Shown one piece after another: positions 6,465 through 33,772 of a stretch of 64,000 nt of DNA; the first letter of the stretch is position 1; every line of letters begins with the position of its first letter. Position numbers and translations under genes: made by a program. Below the pieces are notes generated by a model, which was given only the letters and a program-made list of their open reading frames with translations, had not been told where the DNA came from and did no database searches. Source of the stretch: Desulfomonile tiedjei DSM 6799 (lineage in GTDB: Bacteria > Desulfobacterota > Desulfomonilia > Desulfomonilales > Desulfomonilaceae); assembly GCF_000266945.1 (NCBI RefSeq), contig NC_018025.1:186001-250000 (forward strand). Direction: 5' to 3'.

Positions 6465-8594
6465 TCATTTTTGTACTGACGATTTTATTTTCGATTCGTG
6501 TCTCATGGGACACCATTCTCCGGGTTGGGTCCCTTTCAGGAAAGGTTCCCGCACTACTTTGGAGCAAATGGATGTAGCGCGCAAACCGGATTCCACGCAT
6601 ATGTTTCTGAAAACTATACCTTCCGGTGTAGCTTGAGGCACATTCCCGGAACTCGCACCGGCCAACAGCTTTTCAGTCATTTTTCTGATTTTCTTTTCGC
6701 TGTGTGTCCCGGGCATTCTCACCACAACAGCGGCCTGTCCGGAATAGGCGATTGACCATACCCCTTGATCGTCTCTCGAATAGAAGAGCGATGGATACTT
6801 TTCGCTTTTGTCTTGTCCGCGCTCTTTTATTTCCACAGTCTCCAAGCCTTTCATCATATGATTCACCATGAAGATGACTCCAGGATTGCTTGGAACACGT
6901 ATTCTCAGCTCCTCTTTTTTAGAAGACGAATCACCAACGACCTTGATACCGGGACCTAAGACCGCAGAATTTCCGAGGGTGGCCATAAGAGAGTATATCT
7001 GAGCGATTTCAACAGGGGAGAGCGGATTGGTCACGGCTTTGTCTCCATTGGTTTGGACCTGAACTCCGAATTCTTTCAATACAGGAGTGATCTTCTCCGG
7101 TCCAATGCCGGTCCACACTTTTTGAAACAAAGCTTGCCGTTCTTTTCTGAATGCCTCTCGAAACGTCAATGGGCCCCCGGATTCCTGAGATACAAAAACC
7201 TGGGATGTAAGAGTATACTTGACTTGATCGAGTCGCTCCGGGAGAAGCGCGGGGATGAAGACAAGAGGCAGAAGATTGTCCAGACTTGTCGAAGTGCCGG
7301 CCCATTTCTGCGGTCCCGGGGAAATGTAGGCTTTCAGTGCTCCGGTTTCCGGATTTGTGACCACAACGTGGGCCGACAAACCTGCATCTCCGAAAGCTTT
7401 TAAAAGGTTTTCCGCTTCCTGCTGAAGTATGGGATCCAGGGAAGTCAGCACATCCTGACGTGCTCCCTCCGGGCCGGGCAGATCTCGAGGTAAGAGTTCT
7501 TTTGCGAGTTCCACGAACGCGGGAGCCTTAAGTGCGGGCGCGCTGGATTTTCGCATTTTGACTGAGCTGCTGCAGGATTCATCATATTGTTCTCTTGAGA
7601 TTTTGCCCTCTTTCAGGAGTAATCCGAGGATCATGTTTCTCCTGGCTTTGGCTCTTTCCGGATGCTTGAAAGGATTAATAATGTTCGGGGCCCGTATGAT
7701 CGCGGCCATGAGACCGCATTCTCCCGGATCGAGTTCCGAGAGGTCCTTTCCGAACAAAAATTGAGCAGCTTCGGCTACCCCCTTTACCGGATATGCCCCC
7801 CAGTGTCCGAAGTAGACTCGATTCAGATATGCTTCCAGAATTGTTTTCTTGCTGTAGATTGCGTCGGCGGAAACCGCAAAGACGATTTCGTTTATTTTCC
7901 GAAATAATGTTTTCTCGGGAGTCAGCAGAGTCATGCGAATGAGCTGCTGTGTTATCGTGCTTGCGCCCTGGGCGTATCTGCCCGCTTTAATATTGGCCAG
8001 CAGCGCGTTAACGATCGATATGGGATCTATACCCTGATGACGAAAGAAACGGGTATCTTCCGTGAGCACGATTGCATCTACGAGAAGCTGGGGAATATGC
8101 TCCAAGGGTAACGGGCGGCAGAATTCCTGGGGATAACCGTCTGCCGGCAAAATGGTCAATAGCTCGGGTTCGAGCGTCAGGGCTTCTGCGTCGTTCAAGG
8201 AACGCATCAGACGAATGGAGTTCACTCTGTTCCAATCCAGCCCTATGCTCACAGGACCGTTGGCCATGCCGTAGCTGCGGAAAGGCGAATAGGGCAGACA
8301 TACGTTTATCGCCGAACCTACTTGATTCCATTGCCCTATTTCCGGGACTGCAGAATCGGTTTTCGTGCAACTGATTCGAGAAAGGTGTTCTGCAAGCTTT
8401 ACATTCAGGATGTCATCGCCCACATTCAGAGTGAAAGGAGCAGAATAGAGAAACACCGGCCAGCGATTGAGCTTGACTTCAAACATCCAAACCACAATGC
8501 CGACCGTAAACAGCACGTAACCCGCAGTCAGTGCGAGCAGCACTTTGATTACACTGAGCAACACGGAGAGAATTTCTTTTGAATGACGCGCCAA
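6465..8594 (-). CDS. GT51 peptidoglycan glycosyltransferase with degenerate transpeptidase domain
   Basis: A 709-residue class A penicillin-binding-protein homologue. It has an N-terminal membrane anchor (about 13-35) and a small domain reminiscent of the PBP1b UB2H region. The GT51 transglycosylase is intact in sequence: EDTRFFRHQGID (about 177-188), GASTITQQL and EIVFA motifs. The C-terminal half aligns in layout with transpeptidases but I cannot find the catalytic SxxK, the SxN, or the KTGT motif; the region where KTG is expected reads FYSRDDQGVWSIAYSG. Function is therefore probably glycan polymerisation only. It lies 81 bp ahead of the LUD gene and may share its transcript. Confidence 0.85.
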   Translation of the reverse strand: MARHSKEILSVLLSVIKVLLALTAGYVLFTVGIVVWMFEVKLNRWPVFLYSAPFTLNVGDDILNVKLAEHLSRISCTKTDSAVPEIGQWNQVGSAINVCLPYSPFRSYGMANGPVSIGLDWNRVNSIRLMRSLNDAEALTLEPELLTILPADGYPQEFCRPLPLEHIPQLLVDAIVLTEDTRFFRHQGIDPISIVNALLANIKAGRYAQGASTITQQLIRMTLLTPEKTLFRKINEIVFAVSADAIYSKKTILEAYLNRVYFGHWGAYPVKGVAEAAQFLFGKDLSELDPGECGLMAAIIRAPNIINPFKHPERAKARRNMILGLLLKEGKISREQYDESCSSSVKMRKSSAPALKAPAFVELAKELLPRDLPGPEGARQDVLTSLDPILQQEAENLLKAFGDAGLSAHVVVTNPETGALKAYISPGPQKWAGTSTSLDNLLPLVFIPALLPERLDQVKYTLTSQVFVSQESGGPLTFREAFRKERQALFQKVWTGIGPEKITPVLKEFGVQVQTNGDKAVTNPLSPVEIAQIYSLMATLGNSAVLGPGIKVVGDSSSKKEELRIRVPSNPGVIFMVNHMMKGLETVEIKERGQDKSEKYPSLFYSRDDQGVWSIAYSGQAAVVVRMPGTHSEKKIRKMTEKLLAGASSGNVPQATPEGIVFRNICVESGLRATSICSKVVREPFLKGTQPGEWCPMRHESKIKSSVQK

Positions 8595-8725
8595 CAGTTT
8601 ACCGCCTTGACGGTTTAGAGGCGGCTCTTCGATGCACTATGCCGCTGGTGGGTAACTATCCTAAAGCGCCCACGAGATCAAGATCCTATAGGGGCTGTTG
8701 CGACAGCTTCAGTTCGACGGCCGGT

Positions 8726-9919
8726 TCAGTTACGTCGCATCAAATGCGTAACCGACTTGTCGAGACCGTCCAAAGTCAACTCAAACATGGGGAAAATATT
8801 GGCAATAATACCGATGGTCCTGGTCATGGGCCAGAGGCGGATCGGGGTCGGGTTCAACCATACTGCATGAGAAAATAACTTGGTCAGTAAATGCAGTCGG
8901 TCAATACTTGGCAATCCGCTCCGTTCTTCTATGTGAATGGAACCGTCTGTTGCCATAAGCTCGTACGGAGCCATGCTGGCATCGCCGATCACAATGAGTC
9001 TCGTCTCAGGGTCCCACGAAGTAAATGCTTCTACTTTTTGGGGTTTATACCTTCTGGGAGCATCTTCCCAGACAAAATCATAAATGGTGTTATGAAAAAA
9101 GAATGTCTTCAGATCCTTAAACTGAGCTCGCGCGTAGTTGAACAACGTCTGGACCACCTCGATATACGGGTCCATAGACCAGCCGCCGTTATCGATCATG
9201 AGGATCACTTTCAATCGGTCCCGAAGGCTCCGATCAAAGATAATCTCGATTTCTCCCGCATTCCTGGTGGTGGCCCGAATAGTCTCGTCGACGTTCACCT
9301 CGTCTTTCGGACCCACAGGAATCATTCTTCGGAGTCTCTTAAGAGCCTCTCCCATCTGGGCTTCCGTGAGCGGTCCTTCCAGTGAATAATCCTTGTATCT
9401 TCTATCGAGTGCCACTTTAATGGCAGAGCGGCCCATGGATCTCCCGCCCACTCGCATTCCACCCGGGTGAAAACCCGAGTGCCCCACCGGGGAAGTTCCG
9501 CCGGTTCCTATCCAGCGGCTTCCACCATGATGAGCCTCGGTTTGTTCTTTTAGCCGGTCCAGGAAGTACTGAATGAGCTCTTCAGGAGACAGGGACTGCA
9601 ACTGATCTTTGCTTAGTCCCAGCGCTTCGGCAAGGGCATCGGGATTCTTGAGCCATTCGTCAAGGAGTTCTCGGGCTGCCGCGTCGAGATCCACGCCGCG
9701 AAAATCGGGCAGTTCCGCACCATTGAAGTAATGAGCAAATACCTTGTCATAAATATCGAAATATCGCTCGCTCTTTACCAGAATCGTCCGGGCTGCCGTG
9801 TAGAAATCGTTCAGAGAGTTGACAAGCCCGCTCTTAAGGGCTTTTTGAAGCCGGAGAAACGATGTGGGAGATACCGGTATCCCTGAATCTTTCAGAAGAA
9901 AAAAGAAGTTTACAAACAT
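8726..9919 (-). CDS. CoxE-like von Willebrand factor A domain protein
   Basis: A 397-residue VWA protein of the CoxE type. The VWA part starts near LKVILMIDNGGWSM (about 237-250), a diverged MIDAS site, as DxSxS is replaced. The front third is helical, and a Gly/His-rich linker (HHGGSRWIGTGGT, about 150-162) follows. Such proteins work with MoxR-type AAA+ ATPases as chaperones for metal insertion or enzyme activation. The partner ATPase is immediately upstream (15 bp). The client enzyme is not obvious; the family name comes from CO dehydrogenase clusters and no cox genes are here. Confidence 0.85.
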   Translation of the reverse strand: MFVNFFFLLKDSGIPVSPTSFLRLQKALKSGLVNSLNDFYTAARTILVKSERYFDIYDKVFAHYFNGAELPDFRGVDLDAAARELLDEWLKNPDALAEALGLSKDQLQSLSPEELIQYFLDRLKEQTEAHHGGSRWIGTGGTSPVGHSGFHPGGMRVGGRSMGRSAIKVALDRRYKDYSLEGPLTEAQMGEALKRLRRMIPVGPKDEVNVDETIRATTRNAGEIEIIFDRSLRDRLKVILMIDNGGWSMDPYIEVVQTLFNYARAQFKDLKTFFFHNTIYDFVWEDAPRRYKPQKVEAFTSWDPETRLIVIGDASMAPYELMATDGSIHIEERSGLPSIDRLHLLTKLFSHAVWLNPTPIRLWPMTRTIGIIANIFPMFELTLDGLDKSVTHLMRRN

Positions 9920-23130: not shown

Positions 23131-24174
23131 ATGACTGAAGATGCGATGACCTTCACAAACAAAGATGTAGTGATTATCGGCGGGGGCGTCGGAGGGATTT
23201 CAAGCGCTGTGGAGCTGGATAAACTGGGAATCGAATGCCTCATCCTGGAAAAAACAGATACTTTAGGTGGGCATGCAGCATCACTCTGCTGTAAGGCGAC
23301 CGAAACTTGTCAGCGTTGTGGGGCATGCCTGGTTGAAGACCTGATCCACCGGGCGGGAAACGCGGCGCATATTTCCACTATGCTGAACACAGTTGTTTCC
23401 AATGCACAAAAAACCGCAAATGGATGGAGGCTGGACCTCGTAGCGAACGGGTCCGAAAAAGCTGTCCCTGTTGATGCATCCGCGGTAGTTCTTGCCACCG
23501 GGTTTTCACCGTTCGATCCCGCCCTGAAACCGCAATTCGGGTATGGCAGAGTTCCGGGAGTGTCCACGGCATTGGAACTTGAATACCGTATACGAGCGGA
23601 CGATTGGGATACAGACGTTAAAAAGCTTGCCTTTATTCAATGTGTAGGCAGCCGGGATCATCGCGTCGGCAACAATTATTGTTCCCGCGTGTGCTGTGCG
23701 TATGCTCTGAGGCTCGGGCGATTATTGAAGAACAGATTTCCTGAACTTGACATTGCTCTCTTCTACATGGACGTGCAATCCTTCGATCGAAATTTCGACA
23801 CTCGGTTGAAAGCGGCTCAGGAAGACATGCGAATGGTAAGAGCCATTCCCTCTCAAATAAGAGAAAGCCGGAACGGAAAACCTGAAATCATCTATCACGG
23901 TCCTTCGGACGAAAGAGTTGTAGAGGAATTCGATTCGGTCGCGCTGAGTGTCGGCATGACTCCCGGCCAGTCGCCCCGAGCGATGGGTGAACTGTTCGGA
24001 ATAACAGCCGGCCGTGATGGTTTTGCAGCGCATGAATCGAGCAATCAGGGACTCTTTCTTGCAGGAACCGTCGGCGGCCCGTTATCCATTCCGGAGAGTA
24101 TTTCGAGCGGAGTGTTTGCTGCATCCCAGGTTGCTTCGTATGTTCGGAAAACACGATCCGGAGAAATGGCGTGA
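23131..24174 (+). CDS. hdrA: HdrA-like flavoprotein (QmoA/HdrA N-terminal type)
   Basis: A 347-residue FAD protein. The nucleotide-binding start is VVIIGGGVGGISSAVELDK (about 11-29), followed by LGGHAASLCC and a Cys set CQRCGAC (about 60-66). The middle has LATGFSPFDP and IQCVGSRD; the C-terminal FAD motif is GLFLAGTVGGP. In Hdr and Qmo complexes this subunit holds the FAD that can bifurcate or confurcate electrons. It is shorter than full HdrA, lacking the C-terminal ferredoxin part, which is carried by the next gene; the pair resembles QmoA/QmoB. The downstream GTG overlaps its stop by 4 bases. Confidence 0.9.
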   Translation: MTEDAMTFTNKDVVIIGGGVGGISSAVELDKLGIECLILEKTDTLGGHAASLCCKATETCQRCGACLVEDLIHRAGNAAHISTMLNTVVSNAQKTANGWRLDLVANGSEKAVPVDASAVVLATGFSPFDPALKPQFGYGRVPGVSTALELEYRIRADDWDTDVKKLAFIQCVGSRDHRVGNNYCSRVCCAYALRLGRLLKNRFPELDIALFYMDVQSFDRNFDTRLKAAQEDMRMVRAIPSQIRESRNGKPEIIYHGPSDERVVEEFDSVALSVGMTPGQSPRAMGELFGITAGRDGFAAHESSNQGLFLAGTVGGPLSIPESISSGVFAASQVASYVRKTRSGEMA

Positions 24175-25733
24175 ACGAGCGAGGAACAAATTCTGTCTTT
24201 CTTACGGCGAATCCTCCGGGACCCCGGGAATTCAATCGCGTACTGGTGCTCGGCGGAGGACAGGAAGGTTCTCGGCTTGCACACAGGCTCGGAGAAGATC
24301 AGTTCAACGTAGTACTCATAGGTGGTGTGGACGAAAAACCTTTGCCGAACGTCTCCATTCTACGGGATGCAATTCTGGAGCGAGTGACCGGGTTTGCAGG
24401 AGATTTTCACGTTACCCTCAGGACACCATCCGGACGTCTCACGGAACGTGTTGGCGCCATAATCGCCGCTCAGCCTTCTCAGATAAAACCCAAATTCGAT
24501 CTGTACGGGATTCGACCTGACGAACGCACTCTCTCGCTGTCCCAGGTTGAGGCCGCGCTGGCAAACAGCAGCCTTTCCGTTACACCTGAGGGGAACTGGT
24601 TCCATGCAGCGTTTCTTGTAGGGTTGAAAAACGAATCGGAACTACCTGTATTCGAGCGGGTTTTTGCCGCCATAGAAAAGCTGCAACAAAACGGGCAGGT
24701 CCAGTGTTACGTGTTTACAAGAAATCTGAAAGTGGCGGCACAGGGACTTGAACGGCGTTATCGTGAAACCAGAGAACGCGGAACGATCTTCTTCAAATTC
24801 GACGATGCCGGACCTTGCTTCGAATGCTCTCAAGACAGCACCCGCATCCTCTTCAAAGAGCCGCTTCTTGGTTCGGACATGGAGTTAACCCCGGATCTGC
24901 TTGTGGTGGATGAACTCTATTTGCCACCGGCAGACATGGAAGCTCTCTGGGCCGCAGTACCATCTTCTCCTTTGTTCAGACCCTACTTGCAGCCGGATTC
25001 GCCTCGGTTTTCGGCCGTAGAGACTCCGAAAACGGGAATTTTTGCCATCGGTGCAGCTCGTGGCGTGCACGATCCTCTGTTTGTTGAAGCGGACATTGAA
25101 TCGGCGGTATTTGGCGTCAAAAAGCTGGCGAAAATCGATCCGACCGAGACGATTCCCGAAGTGGCATTCGTCGATCCGGATAAATGCGCTATCTGCTTAA
25201 CGTGCGTAAGATTGTGTCCCCACGGAGCAATCGGATTCAGCGATCGCGCGTTTGTCGATACGATCTCCTGTGTGGGATGCGGCATCTGTGCTGCTGCATG
25301 CCCGATGTCTGCCATTACCCTTGGATCGTCGGCAGCCGAACAAACCAATACCCGGAATAACGGCAAAATAGTTGTATTTCTATGCTCCCATTCCGGGGCA
25401 GAGGCTTGGGAAGCTTCAGAAAACAGCCTGGGAAACTCGGTCCTACCGGTTCCGGTTCCCTGTGCCGGTACAGTGGATGAGAGCCGGATACTCATGGCAT
25501 TTGAACAAGGAGCCCGAGGCATCATCGTGGCCGGCTGCTTCAAAGGCAATTGCGCGTCCGTGTACGGCAGCTCGCTCGCAGAACAAAAGGTCGCTCAGGT
25601 GAAATCGATTATCTCAAACGCAGGATTTAACCCCGAGATCGTCGCTTTCCTGCCCCTTGCGGCAAATACACCGAAAACCCTGCAGACGGCTGTCAAAGAC
25701 ATGGAAGTAATATTGGGGGGACCTTCTTTGTAA
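24171..25733 (+). CDS. HdrA-like ferredoxin domain fused to MvhD
   Basis: A 520-residue fusion, GTG start overlapping the previous stop. The N-terminal part is a decayed Rossmann domain (VLVLGGGQEGSRLA, about 24-37). Two [4Fe-4S] motifs follow: CAICLTCVRLCP (about 341-352) and CVGCGICAAACP (about 370-381). The C-terminal MvhD domain has Cys at FLCSHSG, VPCAGTV and AGCFKGNCAS, with one usual MvhD Cys missing. MvhD normally passes electrons from a hydrogenase or dehydrogenase to HdrA. The last residues GGPSL and the stop are encoded by a dispersed hairpin repeat. Confidence 0.88.
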   Translation: MNERGTNSVFLTANPPGPREFNRVLVLGGGQEGSRLAHRLGEDQFNVVLIGGVDEKPLPNVSILRDAILERVTGFAGDFHVTLRTPSGRLTERVGAIIAAQPSQIKPKFDLYGIRPDERTLSLSQVEAALANSSLSVTPEGNWFHAAFLVGLKNESELPVFERVFAAIEKLQQNGQVQCYVFTRNLKVAAQGLERRYRETRERGTIFFKFDDAGPCFECSQDSTRILFKEPLLGSDMELTPDLLVVDELYLPPADMEALWAAVPSSPLFRPYLQPDSPRFSAVETPKTGIFAIGAARGVHDPLFVEADIESAVFGVKKLAKIDPTETIPEVAFVDPDKCAICLTCVRLCPHGAIGFSDRAFVDTISCVGCGICAAACPMSAITLGSSAAEQTNTRNNGKIVVFLCSHSGAEAWEASENSLGNSVLPVPVPCAGTVDESRILMAFEQGARGIIVAGCFKGNCASVYGSSLAEQKVAQVKSIISNAGFNPEIVAFLPLAANTPKTLQTAVKDMEVILGGPSL

Positions 25734-25746
25734 AGAATGTCCCTCC
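25715..25746. repeat. GGGGGGAC hairpin repeat overlapping a stop codon
   Basis: GGGGGGAC and GTCCCTCC arms flank TTCTTTGTAAAGAA. The TAA of the mvhD-fusion gene is in the loop. The same hairpin occurs at 4672-4703 in the ftsK-adjacent element. Confidence 0.75.
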
Positions 25747-25779
25747 GATTTTCCTTCTTGAATGCGAACGGAGGACGGC

Positions 25780-26244
25780 ATGAGTCCTACAAACTTGAAT
25801 GATTTGGACCCGACTTTCAAGGATCGTGTTGCTGCGCAGCCTGGCGGCGAGGGGATTCGATCCTGTTTCGGGTGTAAGGCGTGCACTGCAGCGTGTCCTG
25901 TCGAAGTTGCTGATAAGCGTTACGATCCTCGCAAGATCATTCGCATGGTACTCTTGGGCATGGTCAAGGAGGTCCTCACGAGCGATACTATCTGGCTTTG
26001 CTCATCATGTTACGGATGTCACGAAGTCTGTCCGCAGAACGTGCGATTCACGGAAGTCATGTTCGCGTTAAAAAACCTGGCGGTATTGGAAGCATGTATT
26101 CCTCCGGGCTTGACTGCGCAACGTGCCCTGCTCAGGGATCACGGCAGATTGTACGAAATCACCGATTTTGAAAACGAGAAGCGGGAAAAGCTTGGATTGC
26201 CTCGGATTGTGGAGCATCCCGAGCACTATGCGGAACTGCTATGA
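25780..26244 (+). CDS. hdrC: HdrC-like iron-sulfur protein
   Basis: A 154-residue protein with two CxxCxxCxxxCP motifs: CFGCKACTAACP (about 29-40) and CSSCYGCHEVCP (about 72-83). These bind the two [4Fe-4S] clusters that relay electrons between HdrA and HdrB. No membrane segments, so it is the soluble type rather than QmoC or HdrE-linked. The ATG at 25780 is preferred because CGGAGG lies just ahead; an ATG 18 bp upstream lacks one. It stands directly before hdrB. Confidence 0.92.
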   Translation: MSPTNLNDLDPTFKDRVAAQPGGEGIRSCFGCKACTAACPVEVADKRYDPRKIIRMVLLGMVKEVLTSDTIWLCSSCYGCHEVCPQNVRFTEVMFALKNLAVLEACIPPGLTAQRALLRDHGRLYEITDFENEKREKLGLPRIVEHPEHYAELL

Positions 26245-26297
26245 GCCGCTCCGTACCGGATAAACTCGTCACGAATTTGCTTATAGAGAAATAGCCA

Positions 26298-27173
26298 ATG
26301 GAAGCGCTCTTATATCTCGGCTGCACAGTCCCGGTCCGTAATCTCAATTACGAACTTTCCGCCCGACTCACCGCGGAAAAGCTGGGGATTACCTTTCGCG
26401 ACCATGAAGCATTCGGCTGCTGCGGATTTCCTCTGAAATCCATCAATGTTTTCGATACGCTGGTCACTTCGGCTCGCAACCTGGCGCTTGCAGCACAGGA
26501 AGGTTTGGAAATCTGCGCATTGTGCAACGCCTGTGCGGGGACTCTGACAGAAACCGCTCATACCCTGGATTCGGATCCCGAACTCAAAGCAAAGGTCAAC
26601 GAAAAGCTTGAAGTAATAGGACTACGGTATGAAAAGCCTGTGCGCGTCCGCAACTTCATGAGGCTGCTCTGGGAAGAGGTCGGCGTAGAAGGAATCAAGA
26701 ACGCTGTTGTCAGGCCACTGAATGATGTGTTGTTGGCTCCGCATTATGGATGCCATTATCTGAAACCGTCTGAACTGACGGAAGGTTTCGATTCCCCCCA
26801 TATGCCCAGGAGTATGAGCGGGCTCATTGAAGCAACCGGCGCTCGTGCATTGGACTACCCCTCTCTTAAAGAATGTTGCGGTGGGGGCATTCTCGGCATG
26901 TCCGAAGAGATTGCCAATGCTCTTGCAGCAGTTAAGCTTCAGGACGTGAATGCTGCCGGGGCGCATGCTTTAGTGCTCGTATGTCCCTTCTGCAATGTAA
27001 TGTACGAAGGCCAGCAGAAAAAGATAGCAAAAAACTTTGGTTTTGATCTAAAAGTGCCTGTGGTCTATTATCCGCAAATTCTTGGTCTGGCTCTGGGGAT
27101 GACTTCGGAGCAATTGGGATTCAAGCTCAACCGCGTGAAACCCTCAGGTCTCTTGAAGATTGTTGAAGGATAA
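26298..27173 (+). CDS. hdrB: HdrB-like subunit with two CCG domains
   Basis: A 291-residue HdrB. The first CCG domain has Cys9, GCCGFP (about 40-45) and CALCNAC (about 75-81). The second has HYGCHYLKP (about 153-161), ECCGGG and CPFCNVMYE. In methanogens these bind the noncubane clusters that reduce the heterodisulfide; in bacteria the substrate differs or is unknown. Both cysteine sets look complete. It is followed 32 bp later by the lipoyl-protein gene. Confidence 0.92.
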   Translation: MEALLYLGCTVPVRNLNYELSARLTAEKLGITFRDHEAFGCCGFPLKSINVFDTLVTSARNLALAAQEGLEICALCNACAGTLTETAHTLDSDPELKAKVNEKLEVIGLRYEKPVRVRNFMRLLWEEVGVEGIKNAVVRPLNDVLLAPHYGCHYLKPSELTEGFDSPHMPRSMSGLIEATGARALDYPSLKECCGGGILGMSEEIANALAAVKLQDVNAAGAHALVLVCPFCNVMYEGQQKKIAKNFGFDLKVPVVYYPQILGLALGMTSEQLGFKLNRVKPSGLLKIVEG

Positions 27174-27772: not shown

Positions 27773-29188
27773 TCACAGCGAAGTGATTTCCAGCGTCGTG
27801 GAAGTGCCGGAATCCCACCCATCCCAGAGAAAAGTGTTTTCTTTCCCGTCGGCAATAAGCCTCATAGCATACCGAACCTGATCCTCATACAACTCACAGA
27901 AGGCTCCGGGTCTGTTCATCCCTCCGTTCATCTCATAGGCTTCCGCCGGACACGGAGAGCCGCAGAAATGCCGTATCGCGCAAACGGCACACGGGCCGAT
28001 CTCCTCTACCTTCCTACCGGTGACAGACTTGAATGCTCTGGTTTCCAGTACATCCGAGATATTGTCTCGGAAGAGATTTCCTCCGTTAAACTCAGGGACC
28101 CCAACGAACTCACTGCAAGGGAACAGATCCCCCTTCGCTCCCACGGCAAAGAAACACCTTCCGCCGCCGCACGGAGAAATGTCACACATGAGCCGCCGAG
28201 CCAGAGGAGCAACTATGCCGATCAGAACATTTGCGAAATTGGCGATTACCAGTTTCCGTCCCGTCTTCTGATAGAGTTCATAGGTTCGGTCGAGGGCTTT
28301 GAGATAATGAGGGGACATTTCAGCGTCTCTCGGCTTGATGTCCCTGGCTCCTTGCCTGGTGCATCTCACCGGGTTAAGCATCCCTATGGGGACTTCCATT
28401 TCGTGAAGGAAGTTTACCATGTCGGTCAGGGATTCCGTGTTCCGGCTCGTGACCGTACAGATCACATTGTAATTCGGGTATCCCTTCAATCTCTCAAGCA
28501 CCGTGACGGTCTTCTCAAAGAATCCTTCTCCAGCCCAATTCTTTCTTGTCAGGTTTGCTACAGCGGCTTCATGACCGTCAAGAGAAAGCCCTATCCCCAC
28601 ATTCCGAGAAGTAAGGAATTCGATGGACTCGTCATCCAGGAGCGTAGCATTCGTCTGAATCCCAAAGCTAAAATCATCCTTGTATTTCGTGATGCCTGCA
28701 AAGACAGCGTCGCGAGCAAGCATGGGCTCTGACCCGTGGAATACCACCTGGGGTAGCCTTCCCTCAGGTAGCGTGCTTCTGAAGTATTCCTTGAGAATGT
28801 CCAAAGCTCTGATGAGTTCCTCCCGGGTCATTTGGCTGCCGCTTTTGCGCAGTTCTTCCGGGATGTAGCAGTACGAGCAGTTCAGATTACATCGCTCAGT
28901 CGGATTGAAGTAAACCGCGGAAGGTTTGAGGCCAAACCGTAGCAATTCCATCTCCTGCGCAAAGGTCTCGCGCTTCTTCCGAAACTCCTGGATAAGGGAA
29001 CCCGACTCGTCGAGAGCCTCACTGATCTTCTCTTTTCGCAAGAGCGACCAAAAAGCGGTGTCGGGATCGAGAAGGGCAACATAGTCGGGGTGTTCGATTT
29101 CGATGAACTGAATAGTGGGCCCGTTTCCTGTGTTGAAATATTGACCGCTGGACGATGCGGAATTGTTTGCCATATTGGTTGTGTGCAT
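27773..29188 (-). CDS. cbpB: peptide-modifying radical SAM/SPASM enzyme (CbpB type)
   Basis: A 471-residue radical SAM maturase. CNLNCSYCY (about 99-107) is the CxxxCxxC site for the SAM-binding [4Fe-4S] cluster. The C-terminal SPASM region (about 335-445) has many cysteines, including GRCFFAVGAKGDLFPC and CAVCAIRHFCGSPC, for auxiliary clusters. Its gene follows a 29-residue Cys-containing peptide gene and a cobalamin riboswitch. This is the arrangement I recall for the CbpA/CbpB peptide-modification family; the product and role are unknown to me. The ATG at 29188 has AGGAG upstream; the TTG at 29224 is rejected. Confidence 0.9.
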   Translation of the reverse strand: MHTTNMANNSASSSGQYFNTGNGPTIQFIEIEHPDYVALLDPDTAFWSLLRKEKISEALDESGSLIQEFRKKRETFAQEMELLRFGLKPSAVYFNPTERCNLNCSYCYIPEELRKSGSQMTREELIRALDILKEYFRSTLPEGRLPQVVFHGSEPMLARDAVFAGITKYKDDFSFGIQTNATLLDDESIEFLTSRNVGIGLSLDGHEAAVANLTRKNWAGEGFFEKTVTVLERLKGYPNYNVICTVTSRNTESLTDMVNFLHEMEVPIGMLNPVRCTRQGARDIKPRDAEMSPHYLKALDRTYELYQKTGRKLVIANFANVLIGIVAPLARRLMCDISPCGGGRCFFAVGAKGDLFPCSEFVGVPEFNGGNLFRDNISDVLETRAFKSVTGRKVEEIGPCAVCAIRHFCGSPCPAEAYEMNGGMNRPGAFCELYEDQVRYAMRLIADGKENTFLWDGWDSGTSTTLEITSL

Positions 29189-29227
29189 GAATACATCTCC
29201 TGAGAGAATATTGCTTTGCAGCAATGT

Positions 29228-29259
29228 GGCGGGGGTGACAAGTCGAACATACCCCCGCC
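29228..29259 (-). other. stable hairpin between cbpA and cbpB
   Basis: A perfect 9-bp GC-rich stem GGCGGGGGT/ACCCCCGCC with a 14-base loop and no T tract. It follows the cbpA stop by 14 bases and could stabilise the cbpA mRNA 3' end or reduce cbpB expression relative to the peptide. Confidence 0.65.
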
Positions 29260-29273
29260 TGGTTGTGGGTGGG

Positions 29274-29363
29274 CTACTTGGCTTTGGCTACCATCAGAAT
29301 GTAATGGGACAATCCGGTACCGTCAGCCGCACAAGTCTTCCGATAGGCTATGACATCCTTCAA
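29274..29363 (-). CDS. cbpA: short Cys-containing peptide, radical SAM substrate (CbpA type)
   Basis: A 29-residue peptide read from a TTG start, with AAGGAGG ten bases ahead; no ATG gives a usable frame. It begins MKDVIAYRKTC, continues ADGTGLSHYILM and ends in a basic tail. A single Cys (residue 11), the GTG turn and the HY pair are the likely modification targets. It lies 86 bp upstream of the radical SAM gene and downstream of the riboswitch terminator. The fit to the CbpA precursor family is from memory, but the layout (riboswitch, terminator, peptide, maturase) is directly visible. Confidence 0.85.
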   Translation of the reverse strand: MKDVIAYRKTCAADGTGLSHYILMVAKAK

Positions 29364-29396
29364 TTCGTCATCACCTCCTTTCTTCAGCCAAGAAAC

Positions 29397-29429
29397 AAAA
29401 AAACCCTGACACCAAAAAGGTGCAGGGTT
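29397..29429 (-). terminator. riboswitch expression-platform terminator
   Basis: On the minus strand AACCCTGCACC and GGTGTCAGGGTT pair around a short T-rich loop, followed by a run of T. It sits between the cobalamin aptamer and cbpA. An upstream CAGGGTAAACCCTG could pair alternatively as antiterminator, so cobalamin probably controls transcription elongation. Confidence 0.85.
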
Positions 29430-29439
29430 CTGCTTTTGC

Positions 29440-29620
29440 CATCAGGGTTTACCCTGGTCTAAACGCCCGTCTTCTGGCTTTCGGGTCATCCTCCACCCGC
29501 CCTTCCCATCCGGTTTAGACCGAACAGTGGATATGCGGGCTTTGTCACCGATTACAGCGGCGGGACCGCCACGGATTTACACCGTGTTCCGATAGCGCCC
29601 AGACTCTATAATTCTACCTT
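29440..29620 (-). ncRNA. cobalamin (B12) riboswitch
   Basis: On the minus strand the sequence carries the AdoCbl riboswitch landmarks in order: GGAACACGGTGTAAATCCG, then GCGGTCCCGCCGCTGTAA (B12-box region), ATCCACTG, and GAAAGCCAGAAGACGGGC near the 3' side. A terminator follows, then the cbpA peptide gene. This predicts repression of cbpA and cbpB when cobalamin is plentiful. Exact ends are estimated. Confidence 0.92.
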
Positions 29621-32842: not shown

Positions 32843-33772
32843 ATGTTTGAAGCCGCATATTTGAGAACTCTCAGAGAAGGAAGATTTCCGGAAAAGATTG
32901 CAGCAGCGAAGAAGATGCTTTCTCCGTGCACGGTATGTCCACGCGAATGCGGCGTTGACAGGCTCGGACGCGAGAAAGGATTCTGCGGTCTTACCGATAA
33001 GGCAATGATAGCATCGGTTCATCCTCATTTCGGTGAAGAGAGTCCTCTGGTGGGTTCCGGTGGGTCCGGGACTATTTTCATCACCTCCTGCAATCTGAGA
33101 TGCGTGTTTTGCCAGAATTATGAAATAAGCCATCTCATGGAAGGTCAAGAAGAGGATGCGAATCAGATGGGGCGGCATATGCTGGATCTCCAGCGAATGG
33201 GTTGTCATAACATCAATTTCGTTACGCCGACTCACGTTGTCCCCCAGCTTCTCGAGGCAATTCATTGGGCAGTGGAAAATGGGCTGAACGTTCCCATCGT
33301 TTATAATACTGGCGGATACGACAAAGTCGAGACTCTGCGCTTACTCGAAGGTGTCGTAGACATCTACATGCCTGATTTGAAATTCATGGATTCCAGAGTC
33401 TCAAAAGAGCTCATGGATGCTCACGATTACCCTGAGGCTGTGAAGGCGGCCATACGAGAAATGCACCGCCAGGTTGGCGATTTAGAAGTGAATGCTCAGG
33501 GTATTGCAACCCGCGGTCTATTGGTCAGGCATCTCGTGATGCCGGACGATCTGGCGAGTACACGTCAGGCCATGAGATTTCTTGCAGAGCTCTCATCGAA
33601 CACGTATGTGAACATCATGAACCAATATAGACCATGTGGCAGCGCGGTCCGTATGCCGAAAGTCAACAGGTCCGTTACACGACAAGAATACGCTCAAGCT
33701 CTGGAAATCGCCCAAGAAGAAGGTATTAGCAGACTTGACGAACGGGCGCCCCTGAGATTACGATTTTTTTGA
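32843..33772 (+). CDS. radical SAM protein of the PflA-like COG1313 type
   Basis: A 309-residue radical SAM protein. The N-terminal CTVCPRECG (about 29-37) with a later Cys precedes the SAM cluster site CNLRCVFCQ (about 84-92). TIM-barrel motifs include VYNTGGYDKVETL and YMPDLKF. It resembles pyruvate-formate-lyase-activating enzymes, but members of this group have no assigned target. No glycyl-radical enzyme is nearby. It is a monocistronic unit between two repeats. Confidence 0.88.
   Translation: MFEAAYLRTLREGRFPEKIAAAKKMLSPCTVCPRECGVDRLGREKGFCGLTDKAMIASVHPHFGEESPLVGSGGSGTIFITSCNLRCVFCQNYEISHLMEGQEEDANQMGRHMLDLQRMGCHNINFVTPTHVVPQLLEAIHWAVENGLNVPIVYNTGGYDKVETLRLLEGVVDIYMPDLKFMDSRVSKELMDAHDYPEAVKAAIREMHRQVGDLEVNAQGIATRGLLVRHLVMPDDLASTRQAMRFLAELSSNTYVNIMNQYRPCGSAVRMPKVNRSVTRQEYAQALEIAQEEGISRLDERAPLRLRFF

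Follow-up and report, generated by a model that had tools for sequence, protein, structure and literature searches.

Sactipeptides and ranthipeptides commonly arise from a small precursor peptide and a SPASM maturase. A pair of this general layout is already named in NCBIfam, where the peptide is CbpA (TIGR04164) and the enzyme CbpB (TIGR04163), and the copy described here is a regular member of it: both proteins score well above the curated cutoffs, the gene order is identical, and no essential difference is seen. In NCBIfam, PapB, anSME and SCIFF maturase are among the best sequence relatives of CbpB. Although B12 metabolism is well mapped and the pair is widespread, a literature search on CbpA/CbpB, and on B12 riboswitches combined with RiPPs, returned no published study and no paper naming TIGR04163 or TIGR04164, which agrees with the preliminary description of this DNA, where chemistry and product were given as unknown. 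New here are the recurrent riboswitch-terminator layout, the occurrence of the pair in two separate salvage-operon lineages, and a second class of peptide.

A cobalamin riboswitch upstream of cbpAB

The window, i.e., the whole 64-kb stretch of DNA that was analysed, carries on its minus strand, in 5' to 3' order, an aptamer, a terminator, cbpA, a hairpin and cbpB, with the following parts:

29651-29447, minus strand: cobalamin riboswitch aptamer (RF00174; Rfam cmscan 86.5 bits, gathering threshold 31.5)
29439..29457, minus strand: hairpin CCAGGGTAAACCCTGATGG after the B12 box (sequence and fold)
29432-29397, minus strand: intrinsic terminator of the expression platform (-19.5 kcal/mol, z -5.06, T run)
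29374..29379, minus strand: cbpA ribosome binding site AGGAGG (sequence)
29363-29274, minus strand: cbpA, precursor peptide of 29 aa with TTG start (TIGR04164, 55.6 bits, cutoff 35)
29259-29228, minus strand: cbpA-cbpB intergenic hairpin, GC-rich, without T run (fold, z -3.4 computed for the whole intergenic stretch)
29188-27773, minus strand: cbpB, radical SAM/SPASM peptide maturase of 471 aa (TIGR04163, 731 bits; Pfam; fold)

The preliminary description had recognized this five-element layout from the letters alone, and all five lie where it placed them, nearly to the base. Its cobalamin aptamer is the sole gathering-level Rfam match within the window (E 6e-20, full model 1-189 matched), the terminator and the hairpin between the two genes both fold as it had proposed, the 29-codon peptide gene has its strong ribosome site 10 nt 5' of the TTG, and the enzyme carries the Pfam domains Radical_SAM and SPASM.

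As read from the sequence, the succession of riboswitch and terminator corresponds to a transcriptional OFF switch, and this architecture indicates that the operon is probably on at low B12. The hairpin CCAGGGTAAACCCTGATGG may contribute to the switching helix, since ACCCTG occurs both in it and in the 5' arm of the terminator. To what extent does this layout recur? A scan of 84,980 species genomes yielded at least 80 cbpB loci, and a covariance model built from 28 cbpB-linked aptamers, and thus trained on the same aptamer family that it then searched, detected a cobalamin riboswitch in 49 of the 80 listed loci, no further than 1.1 kb upstream of cbpB; Rfam independently confirms the aptamers of the window, L014 and L075. 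Of the 45 copies with a B12 box 5' of the peptide, 34 have an intrinsic terminator between the two, as judged by a simple fold criterion. Control of peptide and enzyme by B12, the central claim of the preliminary description, is well supported, with an Rfam aptamer placed 5' of the CbpA/CbpB pair. Strong folding between cbpA and cbpB (z < -2 against mononucleotide shuffles) was found in 28 of the 40 loci with gaps of 45-300 nt, and the hairpin may set the peptide:enzyme ratio or mRNA stability.

Elsewhere in the window, a heterodisulfide-reductase-like cluster lies on the plus strand 3' of cbpB (23131-27173), with two HdrA-like ORFs (23131-24174 and 24171-25733) besides genes resembling HdrC and HdrB, and a radical SAM activase-like protein, under all family cutoffs (NrdG2-like, 30 bits), is encoded at 32843-33772.

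The CbpA peptide, the CbpB enzyme and a second peptide class

The peptide encoded in the window, LKDVIAYRKTCAADGTGLSHYILMVAKAK (29363-29274, minus strand), holds one Cys, and its TTG start is supported by ATG at the aligned place in two same-family relatives (L098 and L100). Both family assignments of the preliminary description are confirmed by the NCBIfam models, the peptide passing that of CbpA at 55.6 bits and the enzyme that of CbpB at 731.4 bits against a cutoff of 375. A CbpA-like peptide precedes cbpB in 76 of the 77 usable loci (those of the 80 listed with at least 400 nt of upstream sequence), so that the homologous peptide expected beside other cbpB genes is nearly always there. The only usable locus without it is L065, where the 700 nt upstream and the 600 nt downstream of the cbpB homologue (8001-9359) yielded no CbpA peptide. 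The hosts belong to Pseudomonadota, deltaproteobacterial groups, Verrucomicrobiota, Omnitrophota, Nitrospirota, Planctomycetota, Actinomycetota and others, and include the culturable Rhodoblastus acidophilus and Magnetospirillum fulvum.

These peptides share the core R-x-x-C-x3-5-G-L-[STA]-H-[YF]. They were searched for with the pattern R/H/K-x-x-C-x(2-8)-G/N-L-S/T/A-H-Y/F, and the pattern residues are therefore conserved partly by construction, though nearly all loci fit. Their N-terminal stretch varies and is short, down to a few residues in L075, and the CbpA-like peptides of the surveyed loci show no obvious conserved leader.

cbpB starts with ATG behind an AGGAG ribosome site. Across 24 diverse homologues, the radical SAM CxxxCxxC cysteines (C100, C104, C107) and those of the SPASM region (C335, C340, C358, C400, C403, C409, C413, C431) are invariant. 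A fold search with the AlphaFold model of CbpB (mean pLDDT 87.3, pTM 0.87) ranked CteB, the SCIFF thioether maturase (5wgg/5why), first and anSMEcpe next. The alignment with CteB spans nearly the full length, and the model thereby suggests that the N-terminal domain of CbpB binds the peptide. Given the single Cys in the conserved stretch of CbpA, the simplest assumption for the modification is a thioether at this Cys or its oxidation, other crosslinks being possible.

Ten CbpB proteins, from Nitrospirota (mostly) and Omnitrophota, form a clade with support 100 in the CbpB tree, and define what we call class II; L081, which was excluded from the tree because of an internal stop, also carries a class II peptide. 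The typical class II peptide has the C-terminal end NGLTHFVMYGDVPKKKMPL. Of two class II peptides searched with TIGR04164, one gave no match and the other a sub-threshold match, whereas TIGR04163 scored all five class II CbpB run against it above its cutoff, at 504-514 bits. Since the class II peptides (L077-L087) thus score below the NCBIfam CbpA model while their CbpB pass, annotation pipelines using TIGR04164 would overlook them, and they seem to require a family model of their own.

B12 gene context and the role of the product

Flanking ORFs were clustered and their representatives named by NCBIfam. In the surveyed loci, cbpAB is flanked by cbiA, cbiB, cbiC, cbiD, cbiE, cbiL, cbiM and cbiQ, as well as by cobD/cobQ, cobT, cobS and btuFC/btuB, and embedded copies sit either in cbi/cob/CbiMNQO operons or in btuFCD-cobUTS-btuB salvage operons. 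In 27 of the 80 listed loci the flanks hold two or more B12 or cobalt genes; 70 of the 80 have such flanks or a riboswitch of their own, and seven usable loci have neither riboswitch nor B12 neighbours (L064, with cobT adjacent, being excluded from this count). The operon-embedded state changes at least ten times on the CbpB tree, indicating that the association with B12 operons was formed or lost repeatedly. Only B12 and cobalt genes recur beside cbpB; a protease, exporter or receptor that would recur there as a partner was looked for without success. In the actinomycete loci (L039, L042, L044) a further radical SAM gene lies close by, which by its sequence resembles an anaerobic sulfatase maturase and was set aside as unrelated.

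The other riboswitches of the window genome stand ahead of cobU/cobT/cobQ/cbiB/cbiA/cbiC, CbiM, TonB-dependent receptors and a TonB gene; CobN and a CbiZ fusion lie close to them in these stretches. This fusion (L106:9950-12007), which joins a periplasmic-binding domain to a CbiZ amidohydrolase domain, is encoded near a CobN-like protein and a TonB gene.

Which step of B12 metabolism might the pair serve? In five loci (L012, L015, L018, L083, L084), falling in two separate CbpB clades, cbpAB lies among btuFCD-type genes together with, variously, cobT, cobS, cobU, cbiB and cobD, and neither CbiC nor CbiD has a match in these genomes. Many cbpB genomes are metagenome bins, in which single absences are weak, and more weight falls on the joint absence of CbiC and CbiD in genomes with salvage-type operons, which implies that the function is not confined to corrin-ring making or cobalt insertion. 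Among 50 cbpB genomes, matches were found for CobS in 45, CbiC in 39, CbiD in 38 and CbiM in 31; for the 19 without a CbiM match, incomplete bins and cobalt importers other than CbiM have to be kept in mind. CbiC, CbiD and CobS are all without a match in the genomes of L027, L046 and L073, which are possibly incomplete bins. On this genome content (CbiC, CbiD, CbiM), we reject a link solely to corrin-ring synthesis or cobalt insertion. Among relatives at least 90% complete, CbiC occurs in 8/8 with cbpB versus 19/63 without it (Fisher p 2e-4, kinship ignored), and 19 of the 27 that are CbiC-positive have no cbpB, which makes cbpB an accessory gene.

In the salvage operons, an asparagine-synthase-like protein of putative role recurs beside cbpAB (L012, L015, L018), and DUF71-like genes, also of putative role, adjoin cbpB in L012, L018 and L083.

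We hold with moderate confidence that CbpA/CbpB is a module under a cobalamin OFF riboswitch whose product aids the acquisition, handling or activation of corrinoids. With sufficient B12, the aptamer would bind it and the terminator would halt transcription, and at low B12 transcription would read through into the cbpAB operon. CbpB would then bind CbpA, probably via its N-terminal domain, and act by radical SAM/SPASM chemistry on the conserved core, likeliest at the Cys (thioether crosslink or oxidation). The product would be a single conserved compound, not a diversified toxin, and would help the cell to acquire, handle or activate corrinoids, whether made or imported. The individual elements, the family membership, the succession of riboswitch and terminator, the linkage of peptide and enzyme and the B12 gene context are shown, whereas the direction of regulation (from the architecture), modification at the Cys and the corrinoid-handling role are the parts that we infer. 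Weighing against this reading are the accessory status of cbpB, the seven usable loci lacking both a riboswitch and B12 neighbours, the failure to find a recurrent partner gene, and the genomes of L027, L046 and L073. More tentatively, this compound may be an undescribed peptide-derived cofactor or corrinoid-binding molecule used for corrinoid acquisition or handling by corrin-makers and salvagers alike, across many phyla and in two or more divergent classes. A corrinoid-handling product would supply a component so far missing from the B12 economy, and one that replaces B12 would be a new cofactor. Both the salvage-operon occurrences and the existence of two peptide classes open the question to direct tests, in culturable hosts too.

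The preliminary description had offered three functions, of which corrinoid acquisition or handling is favoured by the gene neighbourhoods. The main rival is a B12 substitute, in which a CbpA-derived alternative cofactor would run an enzyme or pathway without B12, as MetE replaces MetH. The OFF-riboswitch architecture agrees with such sparing, as does the fact that most cbpAB copies are solitary riboswitch operons, and the single core conserved in 76 of 77 loci points to a single defined product, as for PQQ. A substitute would nevertheless be unusual within or beside genes for B12 synthesis, transport and salvage, where cbpAB lies in 27 of the 80 listed loci, and no candidate client enzyme recurs beside cbpAB; we regard this reading as unlikely, its weakness being that the repeated placement in synthesis and salvage operons is left unexplained.

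Less likely still are the two other explanations. A cobaltophore or cobalt chaperone, binding cobalt and feeding CbiMNQO and a chelatase, would suit the loci L010, L011 and L077-L082, where cbiMNQO or a gene CbiX-like by sequence is adjacent, and the conserved Cys and His of CbpA could bind metal. The cobalt scavenging of the preliminary description is hard to reconcile with salvage operons in CbiC- and CbiD-negative genomes, with the CbiM-negative genomes (the reservations on importers and bins applying here too), and with the lack of any exporter found beside cbpAB, so that we consider it doubtful. A secreted antimicrobial or signal peptide whose expression is incidentally B12-gated would share the sactipeptide and ranthipeptide plan of small precursor and SPASM maturase, but is very improbable for a core conserved, not diversified, over many phyla, with no immunity, export or protease gene recurring near cbpAB and with repeated placement in B12 operons.

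Comparison with described systems

CteB, PapB and the anaerobic sulfatase maturase have the radical SAM/SPASM fold in common with CbpB, and the two enzymes that align best with the CbpB model act on Cys, CteB via a thioether and anSMEcpe via oxidation. CbpB nevertheless falls below the cutoffs of all the neighbouring families, with 140.5 versus 340 bits for the PapB ranthipeptide maturase (NF047865), 120 versus 349 bits for the anaerobic sulfatase maturase, and 111.8 versus 425 bits for the SCIFF maturase (TIGR03974). The peptides differ as well, SCIFF having a six-Cys pattern that the CbpA of the window, with its one Cys, does not match.

The plan of a conserved peptide and a SPASM enzyme leading to an apparent single product is similar to that of PQQ and mycofactocin. 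However, no PqqE or mycofactocin maturase is among the best 25 NCBIfam matches of CbpB, and cbpAB comes without recurring dedicated peptidase or partner genes. A different kind of likeness is found in the DUF71-B12 salvage genes: their protein family is unrelated to CbpA/CbpB, and the function proposed for them differs from that suggested here for cbpAB (PMC3541065), but they are likewise accessory B12 genes of unproven chemistry, adjoining btuFCD.
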